Part shown: positions 19,208 to 62,492 of the stretch, in pieces
Position numbering within the stretch: position 1 is the stretch's first letter
How the letters are laid out: the number at the start of each line of letters is the position of its first letter
From: Sabellastarte sp. h YS-2021
Taxonomy: Eukaryota > Annelida > Polychaeta > Sabellida > Sabellidae
Assembly: GCA_964017235.1 (NCBI GenBank)
Contig: OZ024936.1
Span: 62,299,028-62,363,027, forward strand
Direction of reading: 5' to 3'
DNA: 64,000 nt
The notes under the pieces: model-generated
Told to the model about the DNA's origin: nothing
Database searches by the model: none
The model's input: only the letters and a program-made list of their open reading frames with translations
Position numbers and translations under genes: made by a program

Positions 19208-19472
19208 TTTGCAAATAAGGTTGAAAATCCATCATAATGCAGAATTTTTTCTTTAAAAACTCTGGAGATGTTGAAAACATGACTGGGCAGTACATGCGCC
19301 AAACGAAAAAGATGCTATGACATCGGGTTGCCTAGACAGGAAGGAAGTACGAGGCGCCATCTGGGAAGTGCACAGTACTGGGACCGGCCAGCCAGTGGAA
19401 ACACAGGACGTCTTTTTCTGGCGTTTGGCAGGCCGGTCTGCGCCATTGGATAGGATGTATTAACGCAATTAA

Positions 19473-19735
19473 ATAACAATTTTCTACACCTTATGGTTTC
19501 TGAGATAGAGCCCGGACAAGATTTTCAAACTCAAGGTCACCACAGCAAGGTCAAATCAGGGTCACAGCATGATGTTGCGCGCCAACACCCCCTAACCAAT
19601 GTCCCTACCAAGTATCATCTTCCTACACCTTAAAGTTTCTGAGATAGAGCCCGGAAAACATTTTCCCGCTGTCTGCCAACCTGCCCATTAGGACACCATG
19701 GGTGAAAACAATACCAGGGCTGTGGGGTAACAAAT
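19473..19735 (+). repeat. 146-bp tandem array, right part and decayed terminal hairpin
   Basis: The array interrupted at 13315 resumes with 'ttttctacaccttatggttt' and continues for under two units. It then ends with the same closing text as the sister element at 31741-31857: 'gcccggaaaacattttcccg', 'caccatgggtgaaaacaata' and 'gggctgtggggtaa'. The first arm of the terminal hairpin is lost. Confidence 0.8.
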
Positions 19736-27200: not shown

Positions 27201-30200
27201 CAACATGCTGGGTGGCCAGCACAGCACCGGGGACCTCAGCAGGTCGGGTGGCTGTCACAACATCTTTCTTGCTGGCTGCACCGGGAAGCTGCTTCTCACC
27301 GGTAACACTAGTAGACTGGTCAGGTGGAATGAAAGGCCTATCAGAAACCACTACTTCTGTACCCTTGACCGGTTCAACCGGAACTTGGAAGCTCTTTGCA
27401 AGGAATAACGCCTCAAGGCGGGCAAAACGCTCTGACCACTTATCGTCCATACATTTCAGGTCAGACTGGAAATCAACAGGCGTTTTGCTGGGTTTCTTCT
27501 TGGTAGGGGACTTGTGAGAGGACTTTTTGGCCTTTTTACTGGGAGTTTCGCCTCTATCACTAACGTCGCCCTTGCTCTCAACCTTCTGTATAACAGTAAC
27601 GTCACCCTGTAGGTAGGGGTGGCCAACTGTAGCTTCTGTTGTTCAGATAGATTGTCACAAATCTGGCACTGTTTCTTCTTAACACAAGGGTCGTCACCAA
27701 TACCCTTATCACGGCAGCGTGCACATTTAAGATGTGAATCAAACAGAGCCATAACATGGCCACACGACCCTCTCTTTTGTCCAGGGGAGGCCATAACAAC
27801 TCCAGAAGCAATAAATATTCTTTATAGAGTAAAATAAAATGAAAGTTGGTAGTAGTCTTTAAAAATTCTAACGTTACACACACACTGCAAAAAACACGTC
27901 CGTACACTCTCGCGCCAAACGAAAAAGACGCCGTGACGTCATTCTGTCTAGACAGGAAGTATGCACGAGGCGACACCTGGCGAATGTACACTCTGTGACC
28001 GGTCCTGCCGGTATTTTATACAGAATGACTTTTTCTGTCGTTTGGCGGGACCGGTCGCGCCGACCGGTAAAGCAATTGTCCATTGGATAGGATGTATTAA
28101 CGCAATAAAATATTGTATTTCAATTTAATAAATCTATGTCTGACACCCCAGTATTTGTATTTATAAAATAAATGTATTGCTCACATACAACCAATTAAAT
28201 GCATTCTACCTGCCACAGCTCAGCCATTCAAAACCCTTGAAACTTATCTGTATGTGGAATTCCCACTTTATTACAGGGTTATATTTATGTTTTGATGAAC
28301 AACTTACTTCACAAATTTAGAAAATATTGTGTTTTATTTTAATATAGGAATAAAAGACATATTATCGTGCTTCGTGGCTTTAATATTCAGCCGATCGATA
28401 GCTTAAAACCATCATAAAGTACAAGAATTTATCTTTTATTCCTATTCTAAAATGGTTACATTGATATTTGTTCAAAATAAGAGGTAAACCTTACGCAAAA
28501 ATCAAAACAAATCCAACGCCATGTTGGCTGTTCCATCAATGAAACATACATAGCGATATCTAAAGTAAAAAAGTAAGTATTTTTGTCACTCTATTTTCAT
28601 AGAATTTGTGATGTAATATTGAGAGACTGTCACTGTAGATGCTTTGAATTTGTTGTAAGCTTTAAAACAATCTGCTATTTATTAAAATCAAGAAGAATTG
28701 ACAATTTTATGAATATTTTAACAACTAATTTTACCGTGAGTTGTTTGTTTACATTTGTACGCGAAGGGACCATATGCATAGAATTCAACAGCGTTGTTTT
28801 ATATTCTATATTCGCGGTTCAAGCATTGCGCAAAAGACGTGTCTAAGGTCACTTCGCAGCATACCATTTTAGAATTTATTTTAATAATCCTTGTCTGACA
28901 CCCCAATACTTATCTTCATAAAAGTATTGCTCACCTACTGACAACAAATTAAATTTATTATACCTGCCAAAGCTCAGGCAGTCAAAACCCTTGAAACTTC
29001 TATGTGTGGGGAATTCCCACTTTATTACTTGGTTATATAGATTTATTTATATTTTGGCCATGCTTAAAATTATGCATTTTTCGTAAATTCTAGCAGATGA
29101 CAGTCAGGTAAAACATGTATAAAAATAGCATCAGAGATGCCCGTAGCCCACAGCCTTGGGAAATATTTTCAACACCATGAGATACAGAAGTACTGTACCA
29201 GTACAAACTTCAGGATACTTTCAGAGCACTGTCAGTTATATAGAGGGCCAAACAATGTTTAAATGGAGAAAAAATGTTTAAAAGAAAGATAATGCGTATA
29301 AAGATGAAGTATTAAAACAAGATAATTCAATGACAAGATGACAGCATTAATCAGTAAACTAAAATTCAACACTCTTTATATACATCTGCACTTGCGAATT
29401 ATGGTTTAGATGGTTTGAATATTACCATGCATACAGAAGTGGTAATACATTTAATGAATGCTTATGTGTGGTGTTGGAGTAAAATCTGCGGCTCACTTGA
29501 TGAAATTCTATCTCTTACAATGGGAAGTTATGAAAGTAAAATTCTTAATAAATTCTAATATGACTTTTGCTTAATCTGCATCAAAAGACAGACCCAAAGG
29601 TGCAACAAGATTTTAAAGGTCAAGGTCACTACGGCAAGGTAAAAGGTCAAATTAAGGTCACACCATGATAATACACACCTACAGCCAATAACCAATGTCC
29701 CTACCAAGTATCAACTTCCTACACCTTACGGTTTCCGAGATACAGCCCTGACGATTTTATAGGTCAAGGTCACTAAGGCAAGGTCAAAGGTCAAATCAAG
29801 GTCACACCATGATGCTGCACACCTACACCCCCAGCCAATGTCTCTACCAAATATCAACTTCCTGCACCTAACAGTTTCCGAGATAAAGCCCGGACAATAT
29901 TTTATAGGTCAAGGTCACTACAGCAAGGTTAAAGGTCAAATCAAGGTCAGACCATGACGTTACACACCTACACCCCCTAATCAATATCCCTACCAAGTAT
30001 CAACTTCCTACACCTTACGGTTTCTGAGATATAGCCCAGACAACATTTTATAGGTCAAGGTCACTACAGCAAGGTCAAAGGTCAAATCAAGGTCAAACCA
30101 TGACGCTGCACACCTACACCCCCTAAGCAATATCCCTACCAAGTATCAACTTCCTACACCTTACGGTTTCCGAGATACAGCCCTGACGATTTTATAGGTC

Positions 30201-33200
30201 AAGGTCACTATGGCAAGGTCAAAGGTCAAATCAAGGTCACACCATGATGCTGCACACCTACACCCCCTAGCCAATGTCTCTACCAAATATCAACTTCCTG
30301 CACCTAACAGTTTCCGAGATAAAGCCCGGACAATATTTTATAGGTCAAGGTCACTACAGCAAGGTTAAAGGTCAAATCAAGGTCAGACCATGACGTTGCA
30401 CACCTACACCCCCTAATCAATATCCCTACCAAGTATCAACTTCCTATACCTTACGGTTTCTGAGATATAGCCCAGACAACATTTTATAGGTCAAGGTCAC
30501 TACAGCAAGGTCAAAGGTCAAATCAAGGTCAGACCAATGACGCTGCACACCTACACCCCCTAAGCAATATCCCTACCAAGTATCAACTTCCTACACCTTA
30601 CGGTTTCTGAGATATAGCCTGGACAAGATTTTATAGGTCAAGGCCACTACGGCAAGGTCACAGGTCAAATCAAGGTCACACCATGACGTTGCACACCTAC
30701 ACCCCCTAACCAATATCCGTACCATGTATCAACTTCCTACACCTTACGGTTTCTGAGATATAGCCCAGACAACATTTTATAGGCCAAGGTCACTACGGCA
30801 AGGTCAAAGGTCAAATCAAGGTCACACCATGACGTTGCACACCTACACCCCCTAACCAATGTCCCTACCAAATATCAACTTCCCAAGCCTTACAGTTTCC
30901 GAGATATAGCCCGGACAACATTTTATAGGTCAAGGTCACTACGGCAAGGTCAAAGGTCAAACCATGACGTTGCACACCTACACCCCCTAACCAATATCCC
31001 TACCAAGTATCAACTTCCTACACCTTACGGTTTCTGAGATATAGCCCGGACAAGATTTTATAGGTCAAGGTCACTACGGCAAGGTCAAAGGTCAAATCAA
31101 CGTCAGACTATGACGTTGCACAACTACACCCCCTAACCAATGTCCCTACCAAGTATCAACTTCCTACACCTTACAGTTTCCGAGATATAGCCCGGACAAG
31201 ATTTTCAAACTCAAGGTCACTACGGCAAGGTCAAATCAAGGTCAGACCATGACGTTGCACAGCTACACCCCCTAACCAATGTCCCTACCAAATATCAACT
31301 TCCCAAGCCTTACAGTTTCCGAGATATAGCCCGGACAACATTTTATAGGTCAAGGTCACTACGGCAAGGTCAAAGGTCAAACCATGACGTTGCACACCTA
31401 CACCCCCTAACCAATATCCCTACCAAGTATCAACTTCCTACACCTTACGGTTTCTGAGATATAGCCCGGACAAGATTTTATAGGTCAAGGTCACTACGGC
31501 AAGGTCAAAGGTCAAATCAACGTCAGACTATGACGTTGCACAACTACACCCCCTAACCAATGTCCCTACCAAGTATCAACTTCCTACACCTTACAGTTTC
31601 CGAGATATAGCCCGGACAAGATTTTCAAACTCAAGGTCACTACGGCAAGGTCAAATCAAGGTCAGACCATGACGTTGCACAGCTACACCCCCTAACCAAT
31701 GTCCCTACCAAGTATCAACTTCCTACACCTTACGGTTTCTGAGATACAGCCCGGACAAACTATTTCCCGCCGCCCGCCCGGACGCCCGCCCACCCGACCA
31801 TCCGGACGCCATGGGTGAAAACAATACCCCAACAGCCATTAAGGGCTGTGGGGTAAAAAGTCTTTAAACATTCTGCAATTGAAATTTTGCTGTAAAGGGT
31901 GGACTTTTATGCATATTACACATGCTTTCAGGGATGAGTGATAATGCAAGCATGTGTGCTTTAAGTATTATAAATCAAAATTAAGTACAATATTCAGCAT
32001 CAAGTACAGACAGTTCAAAACATTCTTAAATTTAGCTCCCGTTTTAGTAGAAACAAGCATTCTGACGCATGCATTTATCTCCCGCCATATAAATTAGATG
32101 TACTAAAGATAGTGAAATATAAATTTTTGCCACGAGCTATAGGTCTGAAATTTTATTATGTTATAGCTGACCCAAAAGTAGATGACCAACATATTTGCCC
32201 AAAATTCTCTAAATGCAATAGTTTTCAAGTTACAAGTGATTTTACTCATGATGGAAGTTAGTGAAAAATCCAAAAGTAGCTATTACTCACTTAGCTATTG
32301 TGATAGACACCGAAGTTACTCACCATGTTGTAGCTATGGAAAAAGTAGCTGAATAACATATTTTAACAAGGTGCTCTAAATGTAATACTTTTCAAGTTAT
32401 AATTGATTTAGTGCATGATTTCATGAATATTAATGCATTAAAAATTATTTTAAAAATTCATAAAAAACTTTAGCATGTGAAAGCTCTCCAAAATGTAGGT
32501 GAATGAGTTATTTGAGAAATATTGGCTATCTGCAATACTTTTAGTGATAATAGGCAGTTACTCGTTTTGAGTAGGTGAGTAATTAGCTACGGATCTGAAA
32601 ATTCACTAATTGAAAGCTCTCCAAAATGTATGTGAATGAGTTATTTCAGAAATACTGGCTATCTGCAATACTTGTAGAGATAATTCGCATTTACTCATTT
32701 TGAGTAGGTGAATAATTAACTACGGGTGTGAAACTTCACCAAGTGAAAGCTCTCCCAAAAGTAGGTGAATGAGTTATTTGAGAAAAATTGGCTATCTGCA
32801 ATACTTTTACAGATAATTCACATTTACTCATTTTGATTAGGTGAATAATTAGCTACGGGTCTGGAACTTCACCATGTGAAAGCTCTCCCAAAAGTAGATG
32901 AACAAGTAATTTGATAAAAATTGGATACCCCCAATACTTTTAGAGATAATTAGCATTTACTCATTTTGAGGAGGTGAATAATTAGCTACGGCTCTGAAAA
33001 TTCACCAAGTGAAAGCTCTCCCAAAAGTAGGTGAATGAGTTATTTGATAAAAATTGGCTATCTGCAATACTTTTAGAGATAATTCACATTTACTCATTTT
33101 CAGTAGGTGAGTAATTAGCTACGGGTCTGGAACTTCACCATGTGACAGCCCTCCCAAAAGTAGATGAATGAGTTATTTGATAAAAATTGGATATCCGCAA

Positions 33201-53468: not shown

Positions 53469-53506
<38 letters not shown>

Positions 53507-56500
53507 CACTAAACCCAAAAACATGTGTACACTATATACAGTCAGCCATAAGACCACTACTGATGTTCGTGGATCTGCTGAGCCGCTACCACAGGACCTA
53601 GGTGGTACAACTCGGAATCTGCCCAGGCTAGGTCCTTCAGGTAGAATTGTGTAAAAGTGTTGTGTGCCTTCCAATGGCAAGCTGATAGGATCTGGTCCAA
53701 GGAAACCCCGCCCTGGAAAGCTTTGGAAGCGGCAAAAGCCCGTACATCATGAGCTCGGACTTGATGCATATTTTGAGCCTCATGATCAGAAAGTTGATAA
53801 CACAACAACACAGTTTGCTTGATCCAGGAAGAGATAGTAGCCGGAACAATATCCTTCTGAAAACTCTTCCGGAAAGATACAAACACCAGATCTTTGCCCG
53901 AACGCAAGTCCTTGGTTCTGTCTAAATAGTAACGCAAGGCCCTGACCGGGCAAAGAGACTTGTCCTCCTTGAGTGACCTGTCCAATGATGGAGCCAACGC
54001 GGGAATGACAACCGGAGCCACAGCAGAAGGTCCGTCCCGCGCTAGCTGATTCTTCGACAGAAAACTGGGAGAGGGATATAATGAGACCTGACTCCAGTTC
54101 TCCTGATGCCTGATGTTGCGGTATAACCATGCATGGATTTCGCTCCTCCTTTTGCCGGAACCCAAAGCCAAGAGGAAAACCGTCTTAAAGGTCAAATGTT
54201 TAAGCGAGGCCTTCCGCATGGGTTCGAAAGGAGCTTTGGTCAACTGGTGGAGCACTAATGAAAGATTCCACGCAGGGACTCCCCGCCTGCCTTTCGGCTT
54301 GTCTCTATGGAAACTGTCCAACAAGCGAGTTAGGCTTTCATCCTTGCCAAAATGAACCGGGTCGTTGCCCAACATATCGGCAATAGCTGTTCTATAGCCT
54401 TCTATAGTACTGGGTTGTAACTGTCTCTCCTTAAAGAGATACAACAAGAAATCGGCCACTTGTTTCAGAGAGGGCGCCCTGAAGTCCACCTGGCTGGATT
54501 CGCACCACTTAACAAAAATGGCCCACTTTGACTTATAGACCGCTCTGGTTGAACTTCTCTGAGGAGCCTCAATTCTTGCTGCCACCTCCTCAGAGAACCC
54601 TTGTCGCCTGATGGACGAGGCTCTAGGAGCCAAGCATGCAGATTCAGATGATTCAAGTTCCTGTGGAGAAGGCCGTTGAACGGTTGAGTCAATAGATCCC
54701 TCTCTAAGGGAAGACTGAAGGGAATTTGACTTGATAGAGTGATCAGGTCCCAAAACCAAGGCATGTTGGGCCAACCTGGAGCGATTAAGATCATTCTGTG
54801 AAATTCTTGATTCACCAATTTGGATGTGACCTGACTGAGCAGGGAGACTGGGGGAAAGGCGTACACGGTCAGGTTGACCCATGGAAGGCTGAGAGCATCC
54901 ACCGCCCAAGCTGTCGAATCTGGAACTGGAGAGACAAACTTGGGAAGCTTGTGATTGAATCTGGTGGCAAAAAGATCTATCTGTGGCTGGCCCCAGTTGG
55001 AACACAAGCGATTGAACACCTGTTGGGACAGGCACCACTCGGTCTGGATCACCTGATTGTGCCGGGACAGCTTGTCTGCTATGACATTCAGTCGACCCGG
55101 AATGTGCCTGGCTCTCAGAACTATTTCTCTGGGATGGCACCAGGAAAGGAGTCTCCAGAGGAGGGCACAAAGAGAGCCTGATTTCATACCCCCTTGTTTG
55201 TTGATATAGGCGACCACAGTTGTGTTGTCGGTCGCCACCAAGACAATCTGGTTCAGGCAGAGAGGTTCGAAACTCTTGAGGGCCAGAAAAACTGCCTTGA
55301 GTTCCAAGAAGTTGATATGAAGTCGACTTTCTACGTCTGACCAAACGCCTCTTGCCGTAGAGTCCCCTAAGTGAGCGCCCCAACCTTCGTTTGATGCGTC
55401 GGTAAACAGTTGAAGGGCGTGACTTAATGGATGTAAGGGTTGGCCCCTTAAAACATTTTCCTCGTCTAACCACCAATCGAGGTGAGGTTGCAGAGAGGGA
55501 GGTAGCGGAATGACTTTCTCTAGGACCTCGGGCACCCGCCAGTGTCTTTTTAGGTGCCACTGAATGGGACGCATGTGGAGACGACCTGACCTGACCTGTT
55601 TCTCGGTGGCTGTCAAGAGTCCTATCAAGGACATGAACTGCCTTACCGTGCACCTGTCCCGGGTCTTTAAAAACAACAGTTTCTGACGCAAGCTTGCCCA
55701 TCTTTCTTGAGTTGGTAAAACCCGACCCGTCAACAGGTCGAACCGGTAACCGACGAAGGTAAAGACCTGTTGAGGATTCAGTTCCGACTTTTTGAGGTTG
55801 ACTAGCCAGCCCAGTTCGTGGCAAAGTGACAAAAGAACCTGTGTGTGAAGGAGACCAATCTCCCTCGAAGGGGCTCTCAGTAACCAGTCGTCTAGGTACT
55901 GGTGGATTCTTATACCCCTGTTCTGAGCCATAAGTTTCACCTCCTTGACTATCTTGGTGAACTCTAGAGGGGCCGTGGCCAACCCGAAGGGAAGGGCAGT
56001 GAACTGGTACGCTCTTTTGTTGAGAAAGAATCTCATGTACTTCCTCGACCGGGGGTGAATAGGGATGTGAAAGTATGCGTCGCTGAAATCCAGCGAGGTC
56101 ACCCACTCCCCTTTCTGTAGCGAGGTCCGGATGGTTTCCGGAGTTTCCATCTTGAATGTGCCGGTTTTGAGGAACTTGTTCAACCGACTCAGATCTAAAA
56201 TAGGCCTCCACTTGTTTTCCGGTTTGGGTACTAAAAACAGCCGGTTGTAGAAGGCGAGAGAAGACCGGACCAAGACTGGTTCCACTACCAACTTTCCTTG
56301 GAGAGAGATCAGTGCCTCTTTGAGGAAACGGCTTTTTACCGGATTGGCATAACTGCTCTGAATGATTGGAACCCTGGTGAGAGGAGGTCTTAATCTGAAT
56401 GGCAGGCTGTAACCCTCCTTTAGAATGGACACTGCTCGAGGGTTTGCGCCTAACCTTTGCCAAACTTGCCAAAACTTTTGAAGACGGCCTCCTACAGGAC

Positions 56501-59500
56501 CATCGTGCACAACAGTGGGGACACCTTGAACATTTTGGACAAAAAGACATGGATCGACACAAGAAACACTGTTCACATGCTTTATTTTTCTCAACACTGG
56601 TACGGGACTTAGACCTTTCTTTTGCGGAAGCCCGGTGGTAGGTACAGAAGGAGCATGAGTTGCAACATGAAAGAACACATCCTGATTTACATGATCTACT
56701 TGCCTCATGGGAAAGTCTGGATTCTGAGATGTGCGGGGTCTTGAACCTGTCTGAACTGAAGCCAGTAATTGACCCGAACTTTTTGTTAACATGTCTTTTA
56801 ATGTCTCTTGAACACTGGAACCGGCCATTTCCGGTGGAACTTGACTTAACTTTGAACAAAGAACTGGTTTGTGACAAACTACCTTGACTAAGTTTAGAGT
56901 CTGTTTTCTGCCCAACCGATTTAATGTCTTGACTACAGAGGTTGGGTTGTAATGGTAACTGTCATTTTTGTTGTTTAAATCCACGGGAGCGAGAGAAACG
57001 GGGATTACTACTACGACCCCTTCCTCTTGATCTTCCCCTGCCCCGAGCAAACTGTCGCCATGGCTGATTCGGTTCAGCTGAAGCTGTATTCCTAGAATCC
57101 CGGCGATCATAGGGCTGGAACCTATTTGGGTTTCGCCAACCAGTGCGCTGCATAGCACCCGGACCGGGTCTTGGAGCAGCACTGGTGGTTTCAGACTTGG
57201 TAATATCCTGTTCTGCAATACATATCAGGTCATCAGGGAAGAGACCATAGTTGAACAATGGGGCATTCCTAAGTCGATTCCAGGTGTCAGACTTCACTCC
57301 AGACTTTACATGATCTAAATAAGAATCACGTCTAAGAAGCACAAGATTTGCCATGTTGACGAAAAGGCTATCAGCTAGGTGCTGCAATGAAGTTCCCATG
57401 GCAATGGAGACATTTTGATGGAAAGCTAGATAGTCTTTCAGGTCGTGAAGAGCCTCTGACACTTCTTTGGGGGCCTTCCCTTTATTGAAATTCGACTGAA
57501 GGCACACTAAGCTCCGATTCATCCGATCCTGCAGTTCACTAGCACATCTGTTAAAGCCTGTTGACAATGTAGCTGCCTTCCTTGGCATTCCGTTCCCATC
57601 GACGTAGATACTCTTGGGAAATAGGTCGTGAGACAGGACCAGAAGGCGGGTAGGAAGAGGCCTTGGTAATACGTGGAAATTGTGAATTAACTTTTGCCTC
57701 GGTGTTCCTCCAACTAAAAACAGACTTGCCAGGACGCGGAGTAGTGTCAGGTCTGAGGGTGTGCATCTGATACCAACGCGCTTGCGATTTTGGCATTTTA
57801 AGGAACTGATCCTTCTTCAACCCACTTGAGTCTTGACTTCTAGAGGGATAACCCTCAGCAACTGTAGTATTTAAGCGTTCAAGTTTTTGACATAACCAGT
57901 CGTCTGGTGGCATAGCCACAGACACACGAGCTGGTCTCCTGGGAACCTTCCCCTTCCAAGGGTTGTTGCTCTTGTCGGGCTCACTGAAATCAGCCTCAAA
58001 AACCGGGATATGATTCCATCCCATAAAGGATCTGACAGACCGGACCGTCTCACGGTAATTCATATCCTCTGTAACTTCTTGTTTCTCACCAGTATCCGAC
58101 AGTTCCCCTTCATCAGGTTCAGAAGCTGAGTAACGCTCACTTTCTTCCGGTTCATATGGCAGATCAGAACACACACTAGCCTGTGAATAATCTTCCGGAC
58201 CGGTTCTGTAACTAGCACTGGCCTGAGAGTAACAGGGAGCCGGACCGGTAACTGACAGTTCCTTTGTCGGTGGACCGGTTGACTGGCCAGCCGGATGAGA
58301 GACAGGTGCTTTGGCTGGTAGAACTTGAGAGCCGGTGTCGGTCATGTCTTCAGCGGGTGCCTGTGCTGAACTTGTAGGTAGTTGTTTTGAACCGACCGGA
58401 TGTAAGTCAGCTGTAAGTTCTTGCTTGTCGGTGGGTTTCCCAGAATGTTTACCGGAGTGTCGGTGGGACTTCTTGTGTTTGTGAGATTTTTTCTTGTCCG
58501 GTTTAACATCAGACCCGTTACCATCTACAGATTCTGCCGGATGCCACACCGGACCGGTGGGTCGGGCAGAAGAAGGGTCAATGAAAGGAGTATCTGATAG
58601 CACCTTTTGAGCAGAAATTGGTTTAACTGGCATAGAGGGAGCAGTGAAAATGTTACCTCTTGAGAGAAGAGCCTCAAATCTGGCAAACTGCTCAGACATC
58701 TTGTCAGATAATGCAACTAACTGACCCGAAGTGACATAAGAGGCGTCTGACGTAGAAGCAGAAGACGCGGCAGGTGCCTGCGTGGAAGGCTGCGCAGAGG
58801 GTTGAAAATCCGGTGCTGACTGCGCAGAAGGCTGCGCAGAAGAGTTCTCTGTCGGTGCGTCAGCAGACGACAAGTCTTCCACCGGAGAAAGAACTGTCAC
58901 CTCTTTGGGGGACACTAGCAATCCTGCTTTCCTTTCCTTTCTTATTCTATAAGATGGAGTAGACAAAGTTTCCTTTTGCGCATCGGAAAACTGGTCACAT
59001 AATGAGCAAGGTTTGTCCTTAACACACGGGTCCTCCCCCAACTTCTTTTCCCTACATCTTGCACAGCGTTCGTGAAGATCGAACGCAGCCATTATATGTC
59101 CGCAAGCGCCCCTGCGTTGCCCCTTAAAATCTCCAGGGGATGCCATGAATATTCAGTAACAATTTGATATGAAAATAATGTCACTTTAAAATGTCTATCC
59201 AACTCTAAAATGTAAAACGTCTCTTTGTAAATCTTTTGACAACTTTTTTAAAATGGCGCCAAACAAAAAGAGGAAGAGCGCATGCGCACGCATGCGCAGT
59301 ATACCGACAGGTAGGCTGTACAGCCACCTGGCGAGTGAACAGGACACTACCGGTCCCGGCCAGAGCCCAGCTCAGGACGTTTTTTTCTAACGTTTGGCGT
59401 GACCGGCAGGGCGCCGGACAAATGCATCTGTCCACTAGGTAAGTTGTATTAACGCAATAAAATGGAAAATTCAAAATGGCCGCCATTTTTGGCAAGACAA

Positions 59501-62492
59501 ATTTTTTTTGAAAATTGGCATGGCTACTCTGCAGAGATACCCTGTGGGTCAAAAATTTCGTCGAAATCGCTCTATCTAGCACGGTTTTCGAGATATAAGC
59601 ATTTTTGTGTTTTGCAATTTTGCGAAAAATTCGAAAATTCAAAATGGCCGCCATTTTTTGCGAGAAATTTTTTGTCTGAAAATTGGCATGGCTACTCTGC
59701 AGAGAAACCCTGCAGGTCAAAAATTTCGTCGAAATCGCTCTATCTAGCAGGGTTTTCGAGATATAAGCATTTTTATGTTTTGCAATTTTTGCGAAAAATT
59801 CGAAAATTCAAAATGGCCGCCATTTTTGGCGAGACAAAATTTTTTTGAAAATTGGCATGGCTACTCTGCAGATATACCCTGTGGGTCAAAAATTTCGTCG
59901 AAATCGCTCTATCTTGCAGGGTTTTCGAGATATAAGCATTTTTATGTTTTGCAATTTTTGCGAAAAATTCGAAAATTCAAAATGGCCGCCATTTTTGGCG
60001 AGACAATTTTTTTTTCAAAATTGGGATAACTACTCCGCAGAGATACCCTGTGGGTCAAAAATTTCGTCGAAATCGCTCAAACTAGCACGGTTTTCGAGAT
60101 ATAAGCATTTTTGTGTTTTGCAATTTTTGCGAAAATTTCGAAAATTCAAAATGGCCGCCATTTTTGGCGAGATAAAATTTTTTTGAAAATTGGGAAAAGT
60201 ACTCCGCAGATATATCCTGCGGATCAAAAATTTTGTCGAAATTGCTCTATCTAGCACGGTTTTTGAGATATAAGCATTTTTGTGTTTTGCAATTTTTGCG
60301 AAAATTTCGAAAATTCAAAATGGCCGCCATTTTGGGCGAGACAAAATTTTTTTGAAAATTGGGAAAACTACTCCGCAGAGATACCCTGCGGGTCAAAAAT
60401 GTTGTCGAAATTGCTCTATCTAGCATGGTTTTTGAGATATAAGCATTTTAGTGTTTTGCAATTTTTGCGAAAATTTCGAAAATTCAAAATGGCTGCCATT
60501 TTGGGCGAGATAAAATTTTTTTGAAAATTGGGAAAACTACTCCGCAGAGATACCCTGTGGGTCAAAAATTTCGTCGAAATCGCTCTATCTAGCACGGTTT
60601 TCGAGATATAAGCATTTTTGTGTTTTCCTTATTTGGAAAATTCATAATGATTAATTAATCATTAATTACTCGGCCATTTCTTGACCAATCAATGCCCAAA
60701 TCTAATGATTTCCAGATTTTAATAGAATGAATGTATTTGCCAAGTTTCAGGTGAATTGATAAAATTCCTTTCAAGTTATCATCCGGACAAGCTTCCCCAT
60801 CGAAAAAAGACATTTTTGGTCATGTGACCTCTCTGATTGGTTGAAATGTCACTGCAGCATATTCAAAAAAATTCCCCAAGGCTACTGCCTAAACCTGCCA
60901 AATTTGAAAAGAATCCGCCTAACGGTTACAGAGTTATAAGGAAAAAAAAATGTGGAGCCGGCGGAGCAGGCGGAGCCGGAAGCTCTCCCATACACAAACA
61001 AGCGTCCCTTGCGGGACGCTTAAATATATATAATCTTTACCATACCTTATACTGCAAAGACAAGCCTTCTAAGGCAGTGACTGGTTGTCTAGTTTTTGTC
61101 TTGCTATCATCACCTGATATACAGATGCTTAGTCTGAAATTACAATTTTTACACATATTATTATATAGCCTTTTCCTATTTTCACTGAAAAAAGTGAAAG
61201 GAAACATATATTTTCTGAGGAAATTACCCACTGAAAAGAATGTCCTGTAAAACTGTTGCAGACCTTACTTATCATTTAAATGACCAAACTGACTCATATT
61301 ATTGTTATTTGAAATTTAAAACTACAAATGAATCTGCTCAGGGTAGATTTTCCTATTTTACTGGTACAAGAAAAAGCCAGGTAAATACCTGATAAGTATT
61401 TTATCTTAAACAGGAATTGCACTTAAGAGATGTGCTGCTTAAAACATTTAAACTATATTTAAATTAAATAAAATTACAGCTCATCTCACCTGTCCACTTG
61501 ATCAGGGTAGTGTGTGGTCAGAGCTTCCTGTAACAGCATTGTGAGATAAGACACGTCTTGCCATGTCTCTCCATGTCTCAGCTATATCAAGATAAACACA
61601 GAGGACTCAAAATCTTTTAATATTGAAATATTTCATTTTTAAAGTCATTTCTACTATGCTAAAAATTGCTGTTTTATATTGAATAACACACGCATGCACG
61701 CACACATATGATACATTTGATAATTTCCCTCTTGGGCTAAAGCCCAGCGGGAGATAATTATTTCTACTATTTTAGAAGCCTTCTATTTTCCAAACAAAAT
61801 ATGGCTCAGCTATAGCTAAGGGTGCTGGGAAGTACATAAGTATTTGCTAACGACTTTACTGGTACATCTGTACATGACTTGAGGATCAAAATTGTTCAAC
61901 AAAAGAATACTTAACTTAAATATTGGCAGTTAAGTGTAAATCTTCCTGCGGATGAAGTCACCTCCATACCATATATAAATGAAATCCAACAAAAAAGGAA
62001 AATGTACAAACAAATGAATGCAGTCATGGAAACAAAGGCTGCATTTTAATCTTCTCAGCCCATGAGTGAAAATAATATATGAGTACAGTAAACCGTTATC
62101 CAATAGTAGATATAACCTCATGTTGCATGCCTAGTTAATATATTTATTTATTTGTGGTTTTACGTCGCTTTCAACACTGTACAGGTCATATCACGACGGG
62201 TAGTTGGAAGGGTAGAGGAAACCAGTACATATAGTTCGCTAGGGTTCTGTACTGTAAACTGCCGACCAACGGCAAGCAACTACCAGCTTTCCCACAAAAG
62301 GCCTTGACGGGGATCGATCCCCGGCCTCAGAGGTGGGAGGCGAGAGTGTTAATATAAAGCTGACTTTAATTTTTCAAATTCTTCCAATTAATGTTTATAA
62401 TATATTATATTATTCTAAAAACACCTTACCTTCTCAAATATTTCTGTGTAAAAATCATACATGGTGTCACCAACTTCCATCAGATAGAACTT
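21218..62492 (-). CDS. TUBGCP5: Gamma-tubulin complex component 5 (C-terminal 299 residues, nine exons)
   Basis: GCP5 is a Spc97/Spc98-family subunit of the gamma-tubulin ring complex, which nucleates microtubules at centrosomes. Its C-terminal half (GRIP2) binds gamma-tubulin. Minus-strand exons in gene order are 62430-62492, 61490-61581, 61046-61133, 48503-48623, 42405-42574, 41684-41800, 41160-41257, 21608-21708 and 21218-21267 (stop TAG at 21218-21220). All phases join, for 900 nt in total. Diagnostic peptides, compared from memory with vertebrate GCP5, include EVGDTMYDFYTEIFEK, YKVPWPVDVVLNKK (across a junction), FVNSLHQYIMTRILHSTGLE (across a junction), LDQLISVHRKYLSSIHERC, IVMKVLNLAIQF and KRGSFPHLESLAFSL. 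Exon lengths are ordinary, but three introns are huge (19.5, 5.9 and 12.4 kb) and filled with mobile arrays. The 5' exons, encoding the GRIP1 region, lie beyond 64000. The gene converges on the CAP gene. Confidence 0.95.
21961..22128. repeat. Left inverted terminal repeat of DIRS copy C
   Basis: About 168 bp, the reverse complement of 27922-28090 with about two differences. It contains a perfect TGACGTCA (CRE-type) palindrome and ends with CCTATCCAATGGACA at the outer side. Confidence 0.92.
22195..22283. repeat. Internal complementary region of DIRS copy C
   Basis: This 89-bp block is complementary to the two outer extremities of the element fused head to head. Its first half mirrors the left edge (21914-21975) and its second half mirrors the right edge (28075-28111). 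This is the DIRS circle-junction template. Confidence 0.9.
22616..23700 (-). CDS. DIRS tyrosine recombinase region (copy C)
   Basis: The C-terminal part of a long open minus frame encodes a phage-integrase-like tyrosine recombinase, which inserts the circular DNA copy. An N-terminal SAM-like region (KWSIFTKWC, AIADFLLYLF) is followed by the catalytic set: Arg in GSGKRRSEIHAW, HDVR, then the HW pair in SACHWKSHN with the Tyr in FTQFYL. The frame stays open well upstream, but that part is a shadow of the overlapping RT frame, so the true start is uncertain. Overlap of recombinase and RT/RNase H frames is usual in DIRS elements. Confidence 0.88.
23515..25797 (-). CDS. DIRS reverse transcriptase / RNase H (copy C)
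   Basis: An open minus frame of about 760 residues. RT motifs are visible in order: FYNRLFLVPKPNNRWRPILD, SIDFKDAYFHVPI, LPFGLSTAPLEF and QYLDDWLV (YxDD box). They are followed by RNase H motifs FTDASKEGWGAHL, YLELKAVLLAL and ATDNTTVVAYINKEGG. A post-RNase H block (DLFATRFNNKL, PPAAILGKV, PGWPNMPWFWD) is the region that in DIRS1 relatives is described as methyltransferase-like; that assignment is from family knowledge. It overlaps the recombinase frame at its 3' end and the ORF1 region at its 5' end. The first Met is uncertain. Confidence 0.9.
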   Translation of the reverse strand: MSSRSDRGFCVKCNERSKVKSDRKGLFPVSYHVVSHVPFAGGLPQKKGIIPERQRSIKSVKGVSCVNHLSSVQNVTNVPLVVPHPPVGSRLHKFWEKWAALGVNPKVVSVLREGYILPFRSRPYLTREPTITSCYVDPHRNSYLLEALHQLLNKNAVELVQNPQSLGFYNRLFLVPKPNNRWRPILDLSKLNKFLKTKTFKMETPETIRTSLQTGEWVTSIDFKDAYFHVPINSQSRKYMRFHIQGKTYQFKALPFGLSTAPLEFTVIAKEVKWLAMKQGIRIHQYLDDWLVRARSLQVCRQQTQSLVTLCKDLGWLVNQEKSELEPKQIFNFVGYQFDLKQGRVRPTQERWQGLQVKIREILASPVCLVRNFMSLIGLLTATEKQVHMGRLHMRPIQWHLKNNWRIPETLDKTIPRSLHPHLKWWLEEDNVIKGQTLHPLAHALQIFTDASKEGWGAHLNELMARGRWSLPESKLHINYLELKAVLLALKEFQTLCANRVVLIATDNTTVVAYINKEGGMKSGPLCALLWRILTWCTRHQVILKARHIPGRLNVIADKLSRLGQTIQTEWSLNPEIFKAICDRWHRPQVDLFATRFNNKLPHFVSPVPDPQAWAVDALSLSWEELDPYAFPPAAILGKVVEKLQDYPCNRIILIAPGWPNMPWFWDLVTMSSQIPLCLPSIPNLVSQPFNQVLHRNLSNLNLHAWLLEPQQSRNRGSLRQWQHELRLLKEDQPDLSMRQSGPFLQSGASVIRWTSEHHL
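25650..27794 (-). pseudogene. DIRS ORF1 / gag-like region (copy C)
   Basis: The region starts with an N-terminal Cys/His motif (CGHVMALFDSHLKCARCR then CVKKKQCQIC), shared with copy D. It continues with a low-complexity charged middle and a C-terminal part with SYMCNQAAAFSRCL and HLSALFPDHIISKAEEEI. This is presumably the element's nucleic-acid-binding ORF1 protein. The region is not one clean frame in this copy. Confidence 0.75.
27922..28090. promoter_or_regulatory. Right inverted terminal repeat of DIRS copy C, likely promoter side
   Basis: The repeat lies about 130 bp upstream of the ORF1 start near 27794 on the minus strand, where DIRS transcription is expected to begin. It contains TGACGTCA, a perfect CREB/ATF-type palindrome, near 27933-27940. 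Promoter use is inference; the motif is seen. Confidence 0.6.
28129..29035. repeat. Pair of about 165-bp direct repeats flanking about 580 bp
   Basis: 28129-28290 and 28874-29035 share CTGACACCCCA, TATTGCTCAC, GCTCAG, 'caaaacccttgaaact' and 'gaattcccactttatta' in the same order. They look roughly 80-85 percent alike. The middle holds an inverted pair (ATAGGAATAAAAGA near 28345, TCTTTTATTCCTAT near 28430). It may be a small element flanked by a duplicated sequence, or a segmental duplication later split. No protein signal. Confidence 0.55.
29144..31855 (+). mobile_element. Hairpin-ended array element 1 (HINE-like), 146-bp repeat cargo
   Basis: TAGCCCACAGCC at 29144-29155 is the near-perfect inverse of GGCTGTGGGGTA at 31844-31855, the 3' arm of a terminal hairpin (31825-31855). 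Between them lie about 450 bp of unique sequence, the 146-bp array (29610-31770) and a GC-rich tract of GCCCGCC/GGACGCC words (31768-31810). The same closing tract and hairpin end the array at 19473-19735. The layout resembles non-autonomous Helentron/DINE-1 elements; no protein is encoded. It lies in the 19.5-kb intron of TUBGCP5. Confidence 0.6.
29610..31770 (+). repeat. 146-bp tandem array, about 15 units, with trimeric higher-order repeats
   Basis: Each unit contains 'tttataggtcaaggtcacta', 'caaggtcaaaggtcaaatca' and 'ccatgacgttgcacacctac'. These are followed by 'ccctaccaagtatcaacttc' and 'tttctgagatatagcccgga'. Three-unit blocks are themselves duplicated: 30841-31260 and 31261-31680 are practically identical over 420 bp, and an older block repeats at about 435 bp (29701 against 30136). 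Every full unit holds two TCAAGGTCA words and usually one AGGTCAAAGGTCA direct repeat. Confidence 0.95.
33349..34722 (-). mobile_element. 5'-truncated L1/Tx1-type LINE insertion
   Basis: The 3' end is marked by the T-rich run at 33349-33358 on the plus strand (a poly-A tail on the minus strand), and the 5' break by the return of 133-bp repeat text at 34723. Only the last third of ORF2 remains (33696-34718). The repeat text broken at 'agagataatt' resumes at 'ttactcattt', so about five target bases were lost and no duplication is seen. Confidence 0.85.
33696..34718 (-). pseudogene. LINE ORF2 C-terminal fragment (zf-RVT region)
   Basis: An open stretch of 340 residues without RT or endonuclease motifs. 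It contains text typical of the L1/Tx1 ORF2 C-terminus (LWYNNQL, DKWFKSGINLVGDIV, NKIKVSKSDKCFFCQ). It also has the zinc-knuckle pattern CFFCQKETESVRHLFGQC, i.e. C-x2-C ... H-x4-C. The Met at 34718 lies next to the insertion break and is not a genuine start. The reverse-transcriptase part is absent, so the copy is dead on arrival. Confidence 0.85.
35863..36340. repeat. Foldback with about 100-bp arms of AGGAGGCATTTTTTCC units
   Basis: The arm 35866-35965 (AATGCCTCCTAGGAAATG and following) is the reverse complement of 36228-36331 (AGGAGGCATTTTTTCCTAG and following), roughly 80-85 percent alike. Each arm is itself built of 16-18 nt units ending in AGGAGGCATT. There are about 260 bp between the arms. 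Confidence 0.7.
37925..39010 (+). repeat. 161-bp tandem array (GGTGACCATAA family)
   Basis: Two adjacent units (37951 and 38112) are nearly identical over 161 bp. Three or four older units follow with 'aaggtgaccataacttcatt', 'gagaatgtccctt' and 'gaacaataagatagctggag'. GGTGACC recurs in each unit. The array lies within hairpin element 3. Confidence 0.85.
39600..40730 (+). repeat. 321-bp tandem array, about 3.5 units
   Basis: Repeats of 321 bp contain 'tagctattactcacttatgg', 'accccaaactatgtaccatc' and 'agctgaacaacatattttag'. Because 321 is divisible by three, the same open frame recurs (KIAITHLWHATEPQTMYHL and so on). No start context, splice signal or related protein supports translation. Its sub-segments resemble the 133-bp unit ('ctgaaactt', 'aaaaagtaga', 'aatacttttga'). 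Confidence 0.9.
40893..40966 (+). repeat. (ACGC)n tract plus terminal hairpin of element 2
   Basis: The microsatellite ACGCACGCACGC (40893-40918) is followed by the hairpin at 40934-40966, with outer stem ATCTCCC/GGGAGAT. 61681-61757 repeats the same pair of features in the same order. Confidence 0.75.
42684..42914. mobile_element. 231-bp MITE with 26-bp terminal inverted repeats
   Basis: GTAGAGTAAGAAATATAAAA at the left and the inverse of TTTTAGATTTCTTACTCTAC at the right are nearly perfect terminal inverted repeats. This is the reference copy in the window. The superfamily is not recognised. It lies in the TUBGCP5 intron 42575-48502, about 110 bp from the 42405-42574 exon. Confidence 0.85.
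42966..43110. mobile_element. pogo/Tigger-like MITE remnant, second copy
   Basis: GTAAAACCTCCTTTATCCAA at the left and the inverse of GGACAAAAGGGGTTCTACTG at the right match the ends of the copy at 11772-11903. The two also share internal phrases ('gatgggagaatgggtt', 'attaaaaatttgga'). Confidence 0.6.
43357..48201 (+). mobile_element. Hairpin-ended array element 4 (HINE-like), 169-bp repeat cargo
   Basis: ATGTCCACCC at 43357-43366 is the exact inverse of GGGTGGACAT at 48192-48201, the 3' arm of a terminal hairpin with a perfect 10-bp stem (TCCACCCCCC at 48178-48187). Cargo: the 169-bp array (43490-47757), about 340 bp of two diverged longer units, and a GGACGCC/GGACATC tract (48110-48155). 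It fills most of the TUBGCP5 intron 42575-48502. Confidence 0.62.
43490..47757 (+). repeat. 169-bp tandem array, about 25 units
   Basis: Units of 169 bp contain 'tgttttgccatttttggcaa', 'cgaaaattcaaaatggccgc', 'catttttggggaggggaaaa' and 'gataccctgtgggtcgaaaa'. They end with 'cgctctatctcgcacggtta'. Near-palindromes recur in each unit: AAAATGGC-C-GCCATTTT, TTGCCATTTTTGGCAA and TCGAAAATTTCGA. Two alternating variants (ACCAAGAGTACAATGCTCAG and GCAAAGATTGCATTCCTTAG) suggest amplification in multi-unit blocks. The first two or three units are the most diverged. The many short open frames here are by-products of a low-stop unit. Confidence 0.96.
48874..49015 (+). repeat. 71-bp perfect-like tandem duplication
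   Basis: 48874-48944 and 48945-49015 are two head-to-tail copies, with only single-base differences visible near their ends (CTGTCATAAA / CTGTGATAAA). This is a recent local duplication in the TUBGCP5 intron. Confidence 0.9.
49097..49333 (+). mobile_element. tRNA-derived SINE with perfect target duplication
   Basis: It has a tRNA-like head with A-box GTAGCGGTTAGAG and B-box GGTTCGAATCT, then a body and a short A-rich AATAAATG tail. AAGATCTTCTCGT occurs immediately before (49084-49096) and after (from 49334), a 13-bp target-site duplication. The insertion is therefore fairly recent. It is a different subfamily from the SINE at 2393, though body phrases are shared. Confidence 0.92.
49640..49925 (+). 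repeat. 169-bp-type units, GCACGGTTTTCGAGATAT subfamily
   Basis: Nearly two diverged units: 'ctatctagcacggttttcaa', 'gcatttttgtgttttgcaaa' and 'ttcaaaatggccaccatttt'. They are more like the units at 59472-60630 than the main array at 43490. Confidence 0.8.
50020..52660 (+). repeat. 133-bp tandem array, about 20 units
   Basis: Units recur at exactly 133 bp in places (50161, 50294, 50427). They contain 'ccaaaagtaggtgaatgagt', 'tggctatctgcaatactttt' and 'attcgcatttactcattttg'. They are highly uniform, much more so than the sister array at 32460-35644, so this array expanded recently. One shortened unit lies near 50460. Confidence 0.95.
52670..52782 (+). repeat. 169-bp-type unit left of DIRS copy D
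   Basis: The text 'ctgctctgcagagataccct' to 'ttttgcgcaaaaattggaaa' is a partial unit of the GCACGGTTTTCGAGATAT subfamily. It continues seamlessly at 59472 ('caaaatggccgccatttttg') beyond the DIRS insertion. Confidence 0.85.
52824..53003. repeat. Left inverted terminal repeat of DIRS copy D
   Basis: About 180 bp, the reverse complement of 59262-59443. The inner end carries two overlapping TGCGCATGCG-type palindromes (about 52975-52992). Confidence 0.93.
53065..53155. repeat. Internal complementary region of DIRS copy D
   Basis: The block GTCCACTAGGTAAGGTATTA to CTTACCTAGTGGACAG is complementary to the left and right outer edges joined through ATTTTCCATTTTATT. It records the circular junction used in DIRS replication, as known for the family. 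Confidence 0.92.
53470..53501. repeat. 32-nt poly-T run
   Basis: A pure T run of about 32 nt lies just downstream (minus-strand sense, poly-A) of the recombinase stop of DIRS copy D. It may be a length-variable A tract in the element's 3' region. Confidence 0.9.
53557..54650 (-). CDS. DIRS tyrosine recombinase region (copy D)
   Basis: The C-terminal 360 residues of a long open minus frame. An N-terminal core-binding part (KWAIFVKWCESS, VADFLLYLFKE) precedes the catalytic set: Arg in GSGKRRSEIHAW, HDVRAFAASKAF, HW in SACHWKAHN and the nucleophile Tyr in FTQFYLKD. The frame further upstream overlaps RT and is probably not used; the start is undetermined. It is closely similar to the copy C enzyme along its length. 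Confidence 0.9.
54465..57218 (-). CDS. DIRS reverse transcriptase / RNase H (copy D)
   Basis: An open minus frame of 917 residues. RT motifs: FYNRLFLVPKPENKWRPILD, SLDFSDAYFHIPI, LPFGLATAPLEF and QYLDDWLLRAP (YxDD). RNase H motifs: FTDASNEGWGAHL, FLELKAVFLALKSF and ATDNTTVVAYINKQGG. The post-RNase H block follows: DLFATRFNHKLPKFVSPVPD and PGWPNMPWFWDL. The first 150 or so residues overlap the ORF1 region and may not be translated in this frame. Its end overlaps the recombinase frame by about 190 nt. Confidence 0.92.
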   Translation of the reverse strand: MQNRILPSLKPPVLLQDPVRVLCSALVGETQIGSSPMIAGILGIQLQLNRISHGDSLLGAGEDQEEGVVVVIPVSLAPVDLNNKNDSYHYNPTSVVKTLNRLGRKQTLNLVKVVCHKPVLCSKLSQVPPEMAGSSVQETLKDMLTKSSGQLLASVQTGSRPRTSQNPDFPMRQVDHVNQDVFFHVATHAPSVPTTGLPQKKGLSPVPVLRKIKHVNSVSCVDPCLFVQNVQGVPTVVHDGPVGGRLQKFWQVWQRLGANPRAVSILKEGYSLPFRLRPPLTRVPIIQSSYANPVKSRFLKEALISLQGKLVVEPVLVRSSLAFYNRLFLVPKPENKWRPILDLSRLNKFLKTGTFKMETPETIRTSLQKGEWVTSLDFSDAYFHIPIHPRSRKYMRFFLNKRAYQFTALPFGLATAPLEFTKIVKEVKLMAQNRGIRIHQYLDDWLLRAPSREIGLLHTQVLLSLCHELGWLVNLKKSELNPQQVFTFVGYRFDLLTGRVLPTQERWASLRQKLLFLKTRDRCTVRQFMSLIGLLTATEKQVRSGRLHMRPIQWHLKRHWRVPEVLEKVIPLPPSLQPHLDWWLDEENVLRGQPLHPLSHALQLFTDASNEGWGAHLGDSTARGVWSDVESRLHINFLELKAVFLALKSFEPLCLNQIVLVATDNTTVVAYINKQGGMKSGSLCALLWRLLSWCHPREIVLRARHIPGRLNVIADKLSRHNQVIQTEWCLSQQVFNRLCSNWGQPQIDLFATRFNHKLPKFVSPVPDSTAWAVDALSLPWVNLTVYAFPPVSLLSQVTSKLVNQEFHRMILIAPGWPNMPWFWDLITLSSQIPFSLPLERDLLTQPFNGLLHRNLNHLNLHAWLLEPRPSGDKGSLRRWQQELRLLREVQPERSISQSGPFLLSGANPARWTSGRPL
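56962..59146 (-). pseudogene. DIRS ORF1 / gag-like region (copy D)
   Basis: The region begins at a Met shared with copy C (MASPG) and a Cys/His motif (CGHIMAAFDLHERCARCR, CVKDKPCSLC). A Ser/Pro/Thr-rich and charged middle follows, including a basic His/Lys stretch (KKSHKHKKSHRHSGKHSGK). A C-terminal part has an Arg/Gly-rich tail (RGRGRSRGRGRSS). It is presumed to be a nucleic-acid-binding ORF1 protein. It is not a single clean frame as given. Confidence 0.75.
59262..59443. promoter_or_regulatory. Right inverted terminal repeat of DIRS copy D with NRF1-like palindromes
   Basis: It lies about 120 bp upstream of ORF1 (start 59146, minus strand). GCGCATGCGCACGCATGCGC at about 59278-59297 contains two matches to the TGCGCATGCGC-type NRF1/P3A2 consensus in tandem. 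The promoter role is inferred from position and from DIRS biology. Confidence 0.6.
59472..60630 (+). repeat. 169-bp-type tandem array, GCACGGTTTTCGAGATAT subfamily, about 7 units
   Basis: Unit starts ('caaaatggccgcc' at 59472, 59640, 59809 and so on) give 168-169 bp spacing. Words: 'aaaattggcatggctactct', 'agataccctgtgggtcaaaa', 'cgtcgaaatcgctctatcta' and 'cacggttttcgagatataag'. It differs from the 43490 array in the second half of the unit (CTCTGCAGAGATACCC in place of TTCCTTAGATACCC) and in GGCGAGAC in place of GGGGAGGGG. Confidence 0.93.
60631..60999 (+). other. Unique 3' segment of array element 5
   Basis: About 370 bp without coding signal between the last 169-bp-type unit and the terminal hairpin. 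The phrases 'gccaagtttcaggtgaattg' and 'caagttatcatccggacaag' are of the same style as the 146-bp unit. It ends in the purine-rich GGAGCCGGCGGAGC tract. Confidence 0.5.
61681..61757 (+). repeat. Solo 3' end of the element 2 family
   Basis: ACACACGCATGCACGCAC is followed about 25 bp later by the hairpin with GGGCTAAAGCCC and GCGGGAGAT. This is the same combination that ends element 2 at 40893-40966. No array adjoins it. It lies in the TUBGCP5 intron between exons 61490-61581 and 62430-62492. Confidence 0.65.
62139..62351 (-). mobile_element. tRNA-derived SINE, 5'-truncated, same family as 2393
   Basis: Read on the minus strand it gives AACACTCTCGCCTCCCACCT, a B-box-like GGGGATCGATCCC, the 'gtgggaaagctggtagttgc' body and an (AAAT)n tail at 62139-62155. 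The A-box end is missing. It shares most of its body with 2393-2628. Confidence 0.85.

Follow-up and report, generated by a model that had tools for sequence, protein, structure and literature searches.

Satellite arrays carried inside non-autonomous Helentrons (HINE) were described in 2020 from the Pacific oyster (Vojvoda Zeljko et al., PMC7492417), in which 13 clusters with consensus monomers of 138-181 bp are reported within HINEs and in which, according to the Discussion of that study, a satellite cluster is consistently found with one pair of flanks. As laid out there, the LF of a Cg_HINE comprises a subterminal inverted repeat (subTIR), an inverted repeat (IR) and a microsatellite, and the RF comprises a subTIR and a palindrome. 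As for the origin of elements with several arrays, that study does not decide between recombination and capture of a junction fragment. For mite HINEs, Thomas et al. (2014, PMC4067079) give a subTIR distance of 2-4 nt at the 5' terminus and of 38-60 nt at the 3' terminus, as well as a palindrome close to the 3' end; an IR adjoining the 5' subTIR in DINE-1 and a stem-loop at Helentron 3' ends are also described. Here, five units found in a 64,000-nt stretch of the genome of the annelid Sabellastarte sp. h YS-2021 (contig OZ024936.1, positions 62,299,028 to 62,363,027; hereafter the window) are interpreted, with a probability of about 0.88, as non-autonomous Helentrons of the bivalve 'pearl'/Cg_HINE type. 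The concept of a satellite-bearing Helentron is already published for the oyster and is not new; the window contributes new families of satellite-bearing Helentrons, a correction of their polarity, one clean empty site, a test of end pairing across the genome for one family, and evidence for a change of carrier by one satellite.

The genome searched comprises 1.786 Gb and the window sits on its contig C14. Sequence-level evidence encompassed about 300 kb, namely 92 loci of about 3.2 kb (numbered with the prefix L) and 42 pieces of 31-125 bases, and the rest of the genome-scale evidence consisted largely of the coordinates of matches. The window copy was counted as one locus within the junction and array sets of units 1 and 2. 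Tandem arrays were detected using Tandem Repeats Finder, which recovered the periods of 146, 133, 321, 169 and 161 bp listed in an initial annotation made from the letters of the window. The corresponding satellites were named S146 (unit 1), S133 and S321 (unit 2), S169a (unit 3), S169b and S133 (unit 4) and S161 (unit 5). The units and their arrays are given below, the strand of each unit being that predicted from its anatomy.

29126-31855, minus strand: unit 1, probable HINE with an S146 array; predicted Helentron 5' end at 31855 and 3' end at 29126, either end being ambiguous by an A run of up to 4 (14 5'-side and 14 distinct hairpin-side ends compared, window included)
29605-31758, plus strand: S146 array of unit 1, about 15 monomers (Tandem Repeats Finder)
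32054-40969, minus strand: unit 2, probable HINE with S133 and then S321 in plus-strand order, into which a LINE-like fragment and unit 5 are inserted (17 5'-side and 30 hairpin-side junctions)
32465-35644, plus strand: S133 array of unit 2, split into 32465-33350 and 34721-35644
35645-39502, minus strand: unit 5, probable HINE with unit-4-type ends and an S161 array, inserted within S133 of unit 2
37946-38480, plus strand: S161 array of unit 5 (Tandem Repeats Finder)
39509-39610: further partial S133 monomer of unit 2, beyond unit 5
39627-40771, plus strand: S321 array of unit 2
43279-48201, minus strand: unit 3, probable HINE with an S169a array; the end at 43279 is based on one further copy, L037
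43497-47772, plus strand: S169a array of unit 3, about 25 monomers (Tandem Repeats Finder)
49513-61021, minus strand: unit 4, probable HINE with a composite S169-type, S133 and S169b array and a nested DIRS-like element
50017-52664, plus strand: S133 array in unit 4, of a monomer subgroup in common with other unit-4 copies

Read on the minus strand, on which all five units would lie according to their anatomy, each unit opens with a subTIR no more than about 5 nt from the terminus. A complementary arm comes next, as in AAGCGTCCC GCAA GGGACGCTT (unit 4) and TACCCCACAGCC...GGCTGTTGGGGTA (unit 1). Units 1, 3 and 4 have perfect or near-perfect 5' arms; those of units 2 and 5 are imperfect, with a mismatch-free stem of at most 4 bp. 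Beyond the arm is a tract of (CGTG)n in unit 2, of GTCCG in unit 3, of GTCCGG-like sequence in unit 1 and of GC-rich sequence in units 4 and 5. A second subTIR lies 18, 23, 78, 52 and 29 nt from the other terminus in units 1-5, respectively, and is accompanied by a 3' palindrome with a stem of 5, 4, 6, 9 and 7 bp: GCATC-TCT-GATGC in unit 1, a weak GCAT...ATGC in unit 2, ACACAT-GATA-ATGTGT in unit 3, TGTTTTTGC-TAT-GCAAAAACA in unit 4 and GTTTTTG-TCAG-CAAAAAC in unit 5. The subTIRs of units 1-4 are 12, 10, 10 and 9 bp long and that of unit 5 has a mismatch. The outer ends lie beyond the previously marked 5' motifs, at 29126 (unit 1), 32054 (unit 2), 43279 (unit 3) and 49513 (unit 4). The ends that were delineated individually are as follows.

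40934-40969, minus strand: predicted Helentron 5' end of unit 2, subTIR and imperfect complementary arm, with the (CGTG)n microsatellite adjoining at about 40892-40919
43340-43355: predicted Helentron 3' palindrome of unit 3, ACACATTATCATGTGT on the plus strand
49545-49573, minus strand: predicted Helentron 3' end of unit 4, 9-bp palindrome with a TAT loop next to the subTIR AAGCGTCCC
61000-61021, minus strand: predicted Helentron 5' end hairpin of unit 4, reading AAGCGTCCC TTGC GGGACGCTT on the plus strand

The subTIR spacing at both ends, the 5' IR and 3' palindrome, and the microsatellite together with central tandem repeats are the features by which HINEs are described. Like Cg_HINE (PMC7492417), the units combine a subTIR, a complementary IR, a GTCC-like microsatellite (units 1 and 3) and a 3' subTIR with a palindrome around one or two central arrays of monomers that are mostly 130-180 bp long, and both sets of elements have a TT-type target and are dispersed over the whole genome, and no autonomous partner was linked to the elements in the oyster study either. 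The initial annotation had regarded the size and variety of the arrays as unusual, a view that does not hold in the light of the 13 oyster clusters. Differences from the published description of Cg_HINE lie in the presence of S133 in two families with unrelated ends and of S169 relatives in two, in the three-part array of unit 4 and in array length, with up to 25 monomers in the window as against an oyster average of 3.6 and a longest array of 29. The DINE-1/HINE elements of Drosophila, mite and Culex (PMC4067079) likewise have a subTIR near the 5' terminus and deeper at the 3' end, a 3' palindrome, an IR by the 5' subTIR (DINE-1), a microsatellite or tandem repeats in some elements and a T-rich target; however, autonomous partners with the same ends were found there, and the subTIRs are given as 12-15 bp. 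The bivalve pearl elements CvA, CvE and DTC84, modular elements with short arrays of ~160-bp repeats (PMC7492417, PMC5139131), were likened to the units by their description only.

The initial annotation had recognised the DINE-1/HINE layout correctly, but its orientation would, going by the anatomy, have to be turned round and the second palindrome had been missed: what it called the 3' hairpin would be the Helentron 5' end, and its 5' motif would be the 3' subTIR beside that palindrome. The same elements in the original polarity, read on the plus strand with the hairpin as the Helentron 3' end, constitute an unlikely alternative, which draws on the stem-loop of Helentron 3' ends and on the long hairpin-side stems of units 3 and 4 (9 bp each), the other palindrome of unit 4 also being 9 bp. 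However, the subTIR at the hairpin end lies within about 5 nt of the terminus, nested in an IR and with a microsatellite adjoining, as at the 5' end of HINE and Cg_HINE, and the opposite end, with its subTIR 18-78 nt in and a palindrome outside it, corresponds to the described 3' end. The minus-strand orientation is used here for the elements themselves, and 5' side and hairpin side are retained below for the two sides as seen on the plus strand.

Four motif pairs had been proposed in the window, at 29144/31844, 32077/40957, 43357/48192 and 49565/61013; all four were found at these coordinates and the fifth unit is also real. Three of the pairs are perfect inverted repeats. The window copy of unit 1 has one mismatch, and 11 of 14 unit-1 5' ends read TACCCCACAGCC, which is fully complementary to the 3' arm. 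Twenty base-composition shuffles of the window gave 0.1, 0.55, 0.9 and 3.3 chance matches with at most one mismatch for the motifs of units 1-4, respectively. The 9-bp motif of unit 4 alone is not significant in the window, and the unit-4 pair was accepted because a genome-wide pairing test settles it. The 24-base hairpin of this unit, AAGCGTCCCTTGCGGGACGCTTAA, which includes the AA next to 61000-61021, has 5,252 exact copies in the genome (2,637 forward and 2,615 reverse) and the motif GCAAAAACAAAGCGTCCC has 8,911 (4,553 and 4,358), and control searches with the backwards patterns returned 0 in both cases. The first 100 places of each pattern by position, which for both correspond to the first 25.5 Mb of contig C1, were used for pairing. 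A motif on the same strand and on the predicted side was present within 10 kb of 47 of 59 hairpins and within 20 kb of 51, compared with 4 and 9 on the wrong side, 0 and 1 on the wrong strand, and a mean of 1.1 (maximum 6) in 1,000 trials of random placement at 10 kb. Hairpin and motif are separated by 2.1-15.7 kb in the 51 pairs, with a median of 4.9 kb. Hairpins occurring without the 5' motifs, the outcome that had been named as contradicting the proposal, were therefore not what was encountered for unit 4. This is another genome with satellites travelling in Helentrons on a large scale, judging from the exact hairpins of the unit-4 family alone. Searches with the hairpin ends of units 1, 2 and 3 yielded 2,843, 1,329 and 676 candidate places (40 of each scored). 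Complete unit-1 copies, with both ends and an S146 array, were found at L002, L004, L005 and L006, and comparison of the two best-match lists of unit 2 returned the window pair only, as these lists hold best matches alone.

The ends of the units are sharp. On the hairpin side of unit 2, all 30 loci are alike through GGGAGATAATAA, one base excepted in one locus, and agreement then drops to 77%, 80%, 60% and 30% at the next four positions; on its 5' side, 17 of 18 loci (18 of 30 being examined) matched at least 24 of 29 bases, nearly always AACAAGCATTCTG, and agreement falls off just outside. On the 5' side of unit 1, 12 of 14 ends start with A4-TAGCATCAGAGATG or a variant differing by 1-2 bases, L014 and L085 being more diverged, and on the hairpin side AAAA follows all 14 distinct ends, a number obtained from 18 rows after removal of two backwards readings of one hairpin and of two window repeats. 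For units 3 and 4, 20 short hairpin-side junctions each display varied flanks. With the unit-3 hairpin end as query, 100% identity over 148-166 bases was recorded at 38 of 40 scored places (window included; best matches and not a random sample), which points to what would be very recent activity. Likeness thus stops at the ends in most copies, as the initial annotation had anticipated for mobile units, and flanks are shared by some copies, namely L045 and L049; L022, L023 and L025; L102, L103 and L107; and L104 and L109.

Empty sites were sought by joining the flanks of three complete unit-1 copies (L002, L004 and L005) and searching them against the genome. For L005, all 40 places scored of 1,923 candidates match the joined flanks (124 bases) at 92-99% identity as continuous DNA that runs through the junction. 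Many of these matches lie in tandem repeats of ~157 bp, and the unit-1 copy at L005 therefore sits in another satellite. In the two empty places that were read, the junction differs from the occupied site in the A run only, the empty places having five As and the occupied site four in addition to these five. The expectation of empty alleles was thus borne out by a clean site for one of three unit-1 copies tested, and not by L002 or L004. With regard to L005 itself, the ~157-bp-period satellite that hosts the insertion is widespread in the genome. Dispersed copies, sharp ends and an empty site are the hallmarks of HINE mobility. HINEs are described as inserting at TT or T-rich sites with no target duplication; the insertion sites here are A/T runs of AA to AAAA on the plus strand and TT to TTTT on the other.

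Further insertions are evident as nested copies. Unit 5, previously labelled a decayed relative, is not just decayed but is a nested element with unit-4-type ends and its own satellite, S161; the element lies in the S133 array of unit 2 in the window as GATAA / CTAG...CCTCTT / AATTATCATTTAC, compared with GATAATTCACATTTAC in the intact monomer. At L060 a unit-4 copy interrupts S133 within a unit-2 element, and at L003 a unit-3 copy lies in the 5' region of a unit-1 element, one side being read in each case. By eye, the right flanks of several unit-3 copies (L097, L102, L103, L107; L096, L105, L108, L111) resemble S169 or unit-2 repeats, so that insertion of one such element into the repeats of another seems to be frequent.

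Two explanations other than Helentrons were weighed against these data. Foldback or miniature inverted-repeat transposable element (MITE)-type DNA transposons, moving by cut-and-paste with subterminal inverted repeats and an AA to AAAA target duplication, would account for the A runs on both sides of occupied sites, and bivalve pearl-type elements have been filed as MITEs in some descriptions. However, the ends of the units are asymmetric, the inverted repeats on the motif side are not terminal and the layout fits HINE feature by feature, leaving cut-and-paste movement a slim chance. Copying of satellite-rich blocks by unequal exchange or segmental duplication, without transposition, could be read into the shared flanks listed above, which duplication could explain, as could insertion into one common repeat, but is highly improbable given that most flanks are unrelated right up to the ends, that the 5,252 exact unit-4 hairpins are about equally divided between strands and that the empty site is exact to within an A run.

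The interpretation as HINEs has points against it. The subTIRs of units 2-4, at 9-10 bp, are shorter than those described for HINEs (11-15 bp) and for the oyster (normally 11-12), and the 3' subTIR distances, 18-78 nt across the units, span a wider range than in mite HINEs (38-60 nt). Only the halves themselves were matched by the joined flanks of L002 and L004, giving no empty site. Occupied sites carry extra As, 4 in L005 and 2 in unit 5, and a target duplication of 2-4 bp and terminal As cannot be told apart at these junctions, where the A runs mask any duplication. Loci were chosen as best matches to the window copy, which biases the junction letters, and some of them share flanks. The genome-wide pairing test covered unit 4 only, and in it an exact partner was absent for 12 of 59 hairpins within 10 kb and for 8 of 59 within 20 kb; for the motifs, 51 of 100 have an exact hairpin within 20 kb and 49 do not. 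Finally, no pair of unit 1-4 ends encloses a Rep gene within 1.5 kb on each side of the 24 Rep matches of the genome (L069-L092), a search that did not include the helicase or the endonuclease, and two promising candidates for an autonomous partner, L070 and L076, were set aside, as Rep lies outside the unit-5-type element there.

These 24 matches to the Helitron-like Rep domain PF14214 are all above the cut-off, compared with 0 in 14 control genomes. Pfam confirmed Rep on two frames, of 1,187 aa (cut by the locus ends) and of 719 aa, and OTU and DUF6570 domains at some of the loci. The autonomous Rep-helicase element with the same ends that the initial annotation had suggested looking for did not emerge from the 1.5 kb on each side of these matches, where no end of units 2, 3 or 4 is present. 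At L085, unit-1-type sequence with a motif match of 15/16 lies beside a Rep relic. The Rep genes at L070 and L076 lie on different contigs and agree at 98.9% over 3 kb. Downstream of both is the same unit-5-type end with S161 sequence, directed away from Rep, as would fit a non-autonomous Helentron carried inside a Rep element or next to one. Unit interiors are also represented by short pieces at L072, L085, L090 and L091.

As non-autonomous Helentrons, the units would presumably be copied by rolling-circle replication using the Rep/helicase of an autonomous element, and whole satellite arrays would therefore move as cargo, after which the arrays may change length through gain and loss of monomers. 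Of the earlier proposal that rolling-circle elements disperse and amplify satellites, dispersal as cargo stands, whereas rolling-circle copying and amplification are attributed to the units through their family membership. The arrays adjoin fixed ends: S321 adjoins the unit-2 hairpin in all 30 loci fetched by that hairpin, and S133 follows the unit-2 5' region in all 30 loci fetched by that region, 26 of which have the terminal motif. Between 12 copies, the first S133 monomer of unit 2 is 97% alike, as against 79-83% to monomers at other positions, and the second is 97% alike, as against 83-91%, whereas from about the fifth monomer on position has no clear advantage. The first monomers are thus transferred as a block, and the array therefore travels with the element and then changes length. 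Consistent with this, a tree of 101 S133 monomers places the first monomers of 8 of 9 unit-2 copies in one group with a support of 0.999, the sequence of the ninth, L060, ending before its first monomer.

The same satellite is not confined to one carrier. S133 is present in units 2 and 4, whose ends are unrelated. S133 monomers of unit 4 (window, L031 and L060) agree at 92.5-94.5% from locus to locus and at 87-91% with those of unit 2, whereas unit-2 monomers are 87-90% alike between copies and no closer to each other than to unit 4. The unit-4 monomers form a homogeneous subgroup, as if drawn from unit-2-like diversity, and only unit 4 has a subgroup of its own. Changes of carrier on the S133 tree number 4, compared with 21.7 on average and never fewer than 16 when the labels were shuffled 200 times, with monomers of the same array being non-independent in this comparison. 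Three unit-4 copies share a common start, an S169-type part, a 90-bp linker and the S133 junction at 93-96% identity, while their flanks, at 25-41% in gapped alignment, have no similarity; the composite array therefore predates the spread of these copies. S169a of unit 3 and S169b of unit 4 are relatives at 76-80% identity, as estimated with few and partly truncated monomers outside the window, and at L037, among the matches listed, a unit-3-type end (20 of 22 bases) is joined to a unit-2-like interior (272 bases at 88-91%).

A tentative explanation, with odds somewhat below even, is that satellites pass between Helentron families with unrelated ends when an element inserts into the array of another and later moves with part of it, the new combinations of end and satellite then spreading. 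By this route of insertion followed by capture, the S169-S133-S169 array of unit 4 would be a captured composite whose S133 derives from a unit-2-like source. Intermediates could be represented by the nested copies (unit 5 in S133, and unit 4 in S133 at L060), and L037 may be another product. A narrow literature search found no report of one satellite in elements with unrelated flanks. The oyster rule of one satellite with one pair of flanks fails here for S133, with the unit-4 copies keeping a subgroup, and the origin of multi-array elements becomes directly testable where insertion intermediates and composite products are present in the same genome.

Two further elements interrupt the units.

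33351-34720, minus strand: LINE-like fragment within the S133 array of unit 2, with a T run at its low end (LINE identity by eye)
52785-59464 (approximate), minus strand: DIRS-like retrotransposon in the S169b array of unit 4 (reverse transcriptase frame confirmed, recombinase frame by eye)

The latter, a putative DIRS element with a putative tyrosine recombinase, accounts for more than half of the length of unit 4, is inserted inside a 169-bp satellite monomer and has inverted flanking sequences and long overlapping frames of 531, 917 and 1106 aa. The 917-aa frame matches Pfam RVT_1 (E=1.5e-21), and a Pfam search of the 1106-aa frame gave no match. Further DIRS-like fragments were seen at 21925-28108, and a unit-1-type element with an S146 array and a hairpin end, apparently split by DIRS-like sequence, at 12280-19733; unit-1-type remnants lie near 3100 and at 19675-19733. 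The stretches 49098-49330 and 62140-62350 have by eye the look of tRNA-derived SINEs (GTGGTGTAGCGGTTAGAGTGC...GGTTCGAATC in the first), in neither of which a tRNA was called by ARAGORN. An isolated, array-less unit-2-type hairpin end with a CACG-rich tract at 61735-61758 may be a truncated copy or a solo end; neither this end nor the unit-1-type remnants had been listed in the initial annotation. Within unit 5, 16-bp repeats in inverted arrangement (CAGGAGGCATTTTTTC and its complement), separated by about 300 bp, were seen by eye at 35872-36352, and the copies at 36274-36352 are also in the Tandem Repeats Finder listing.

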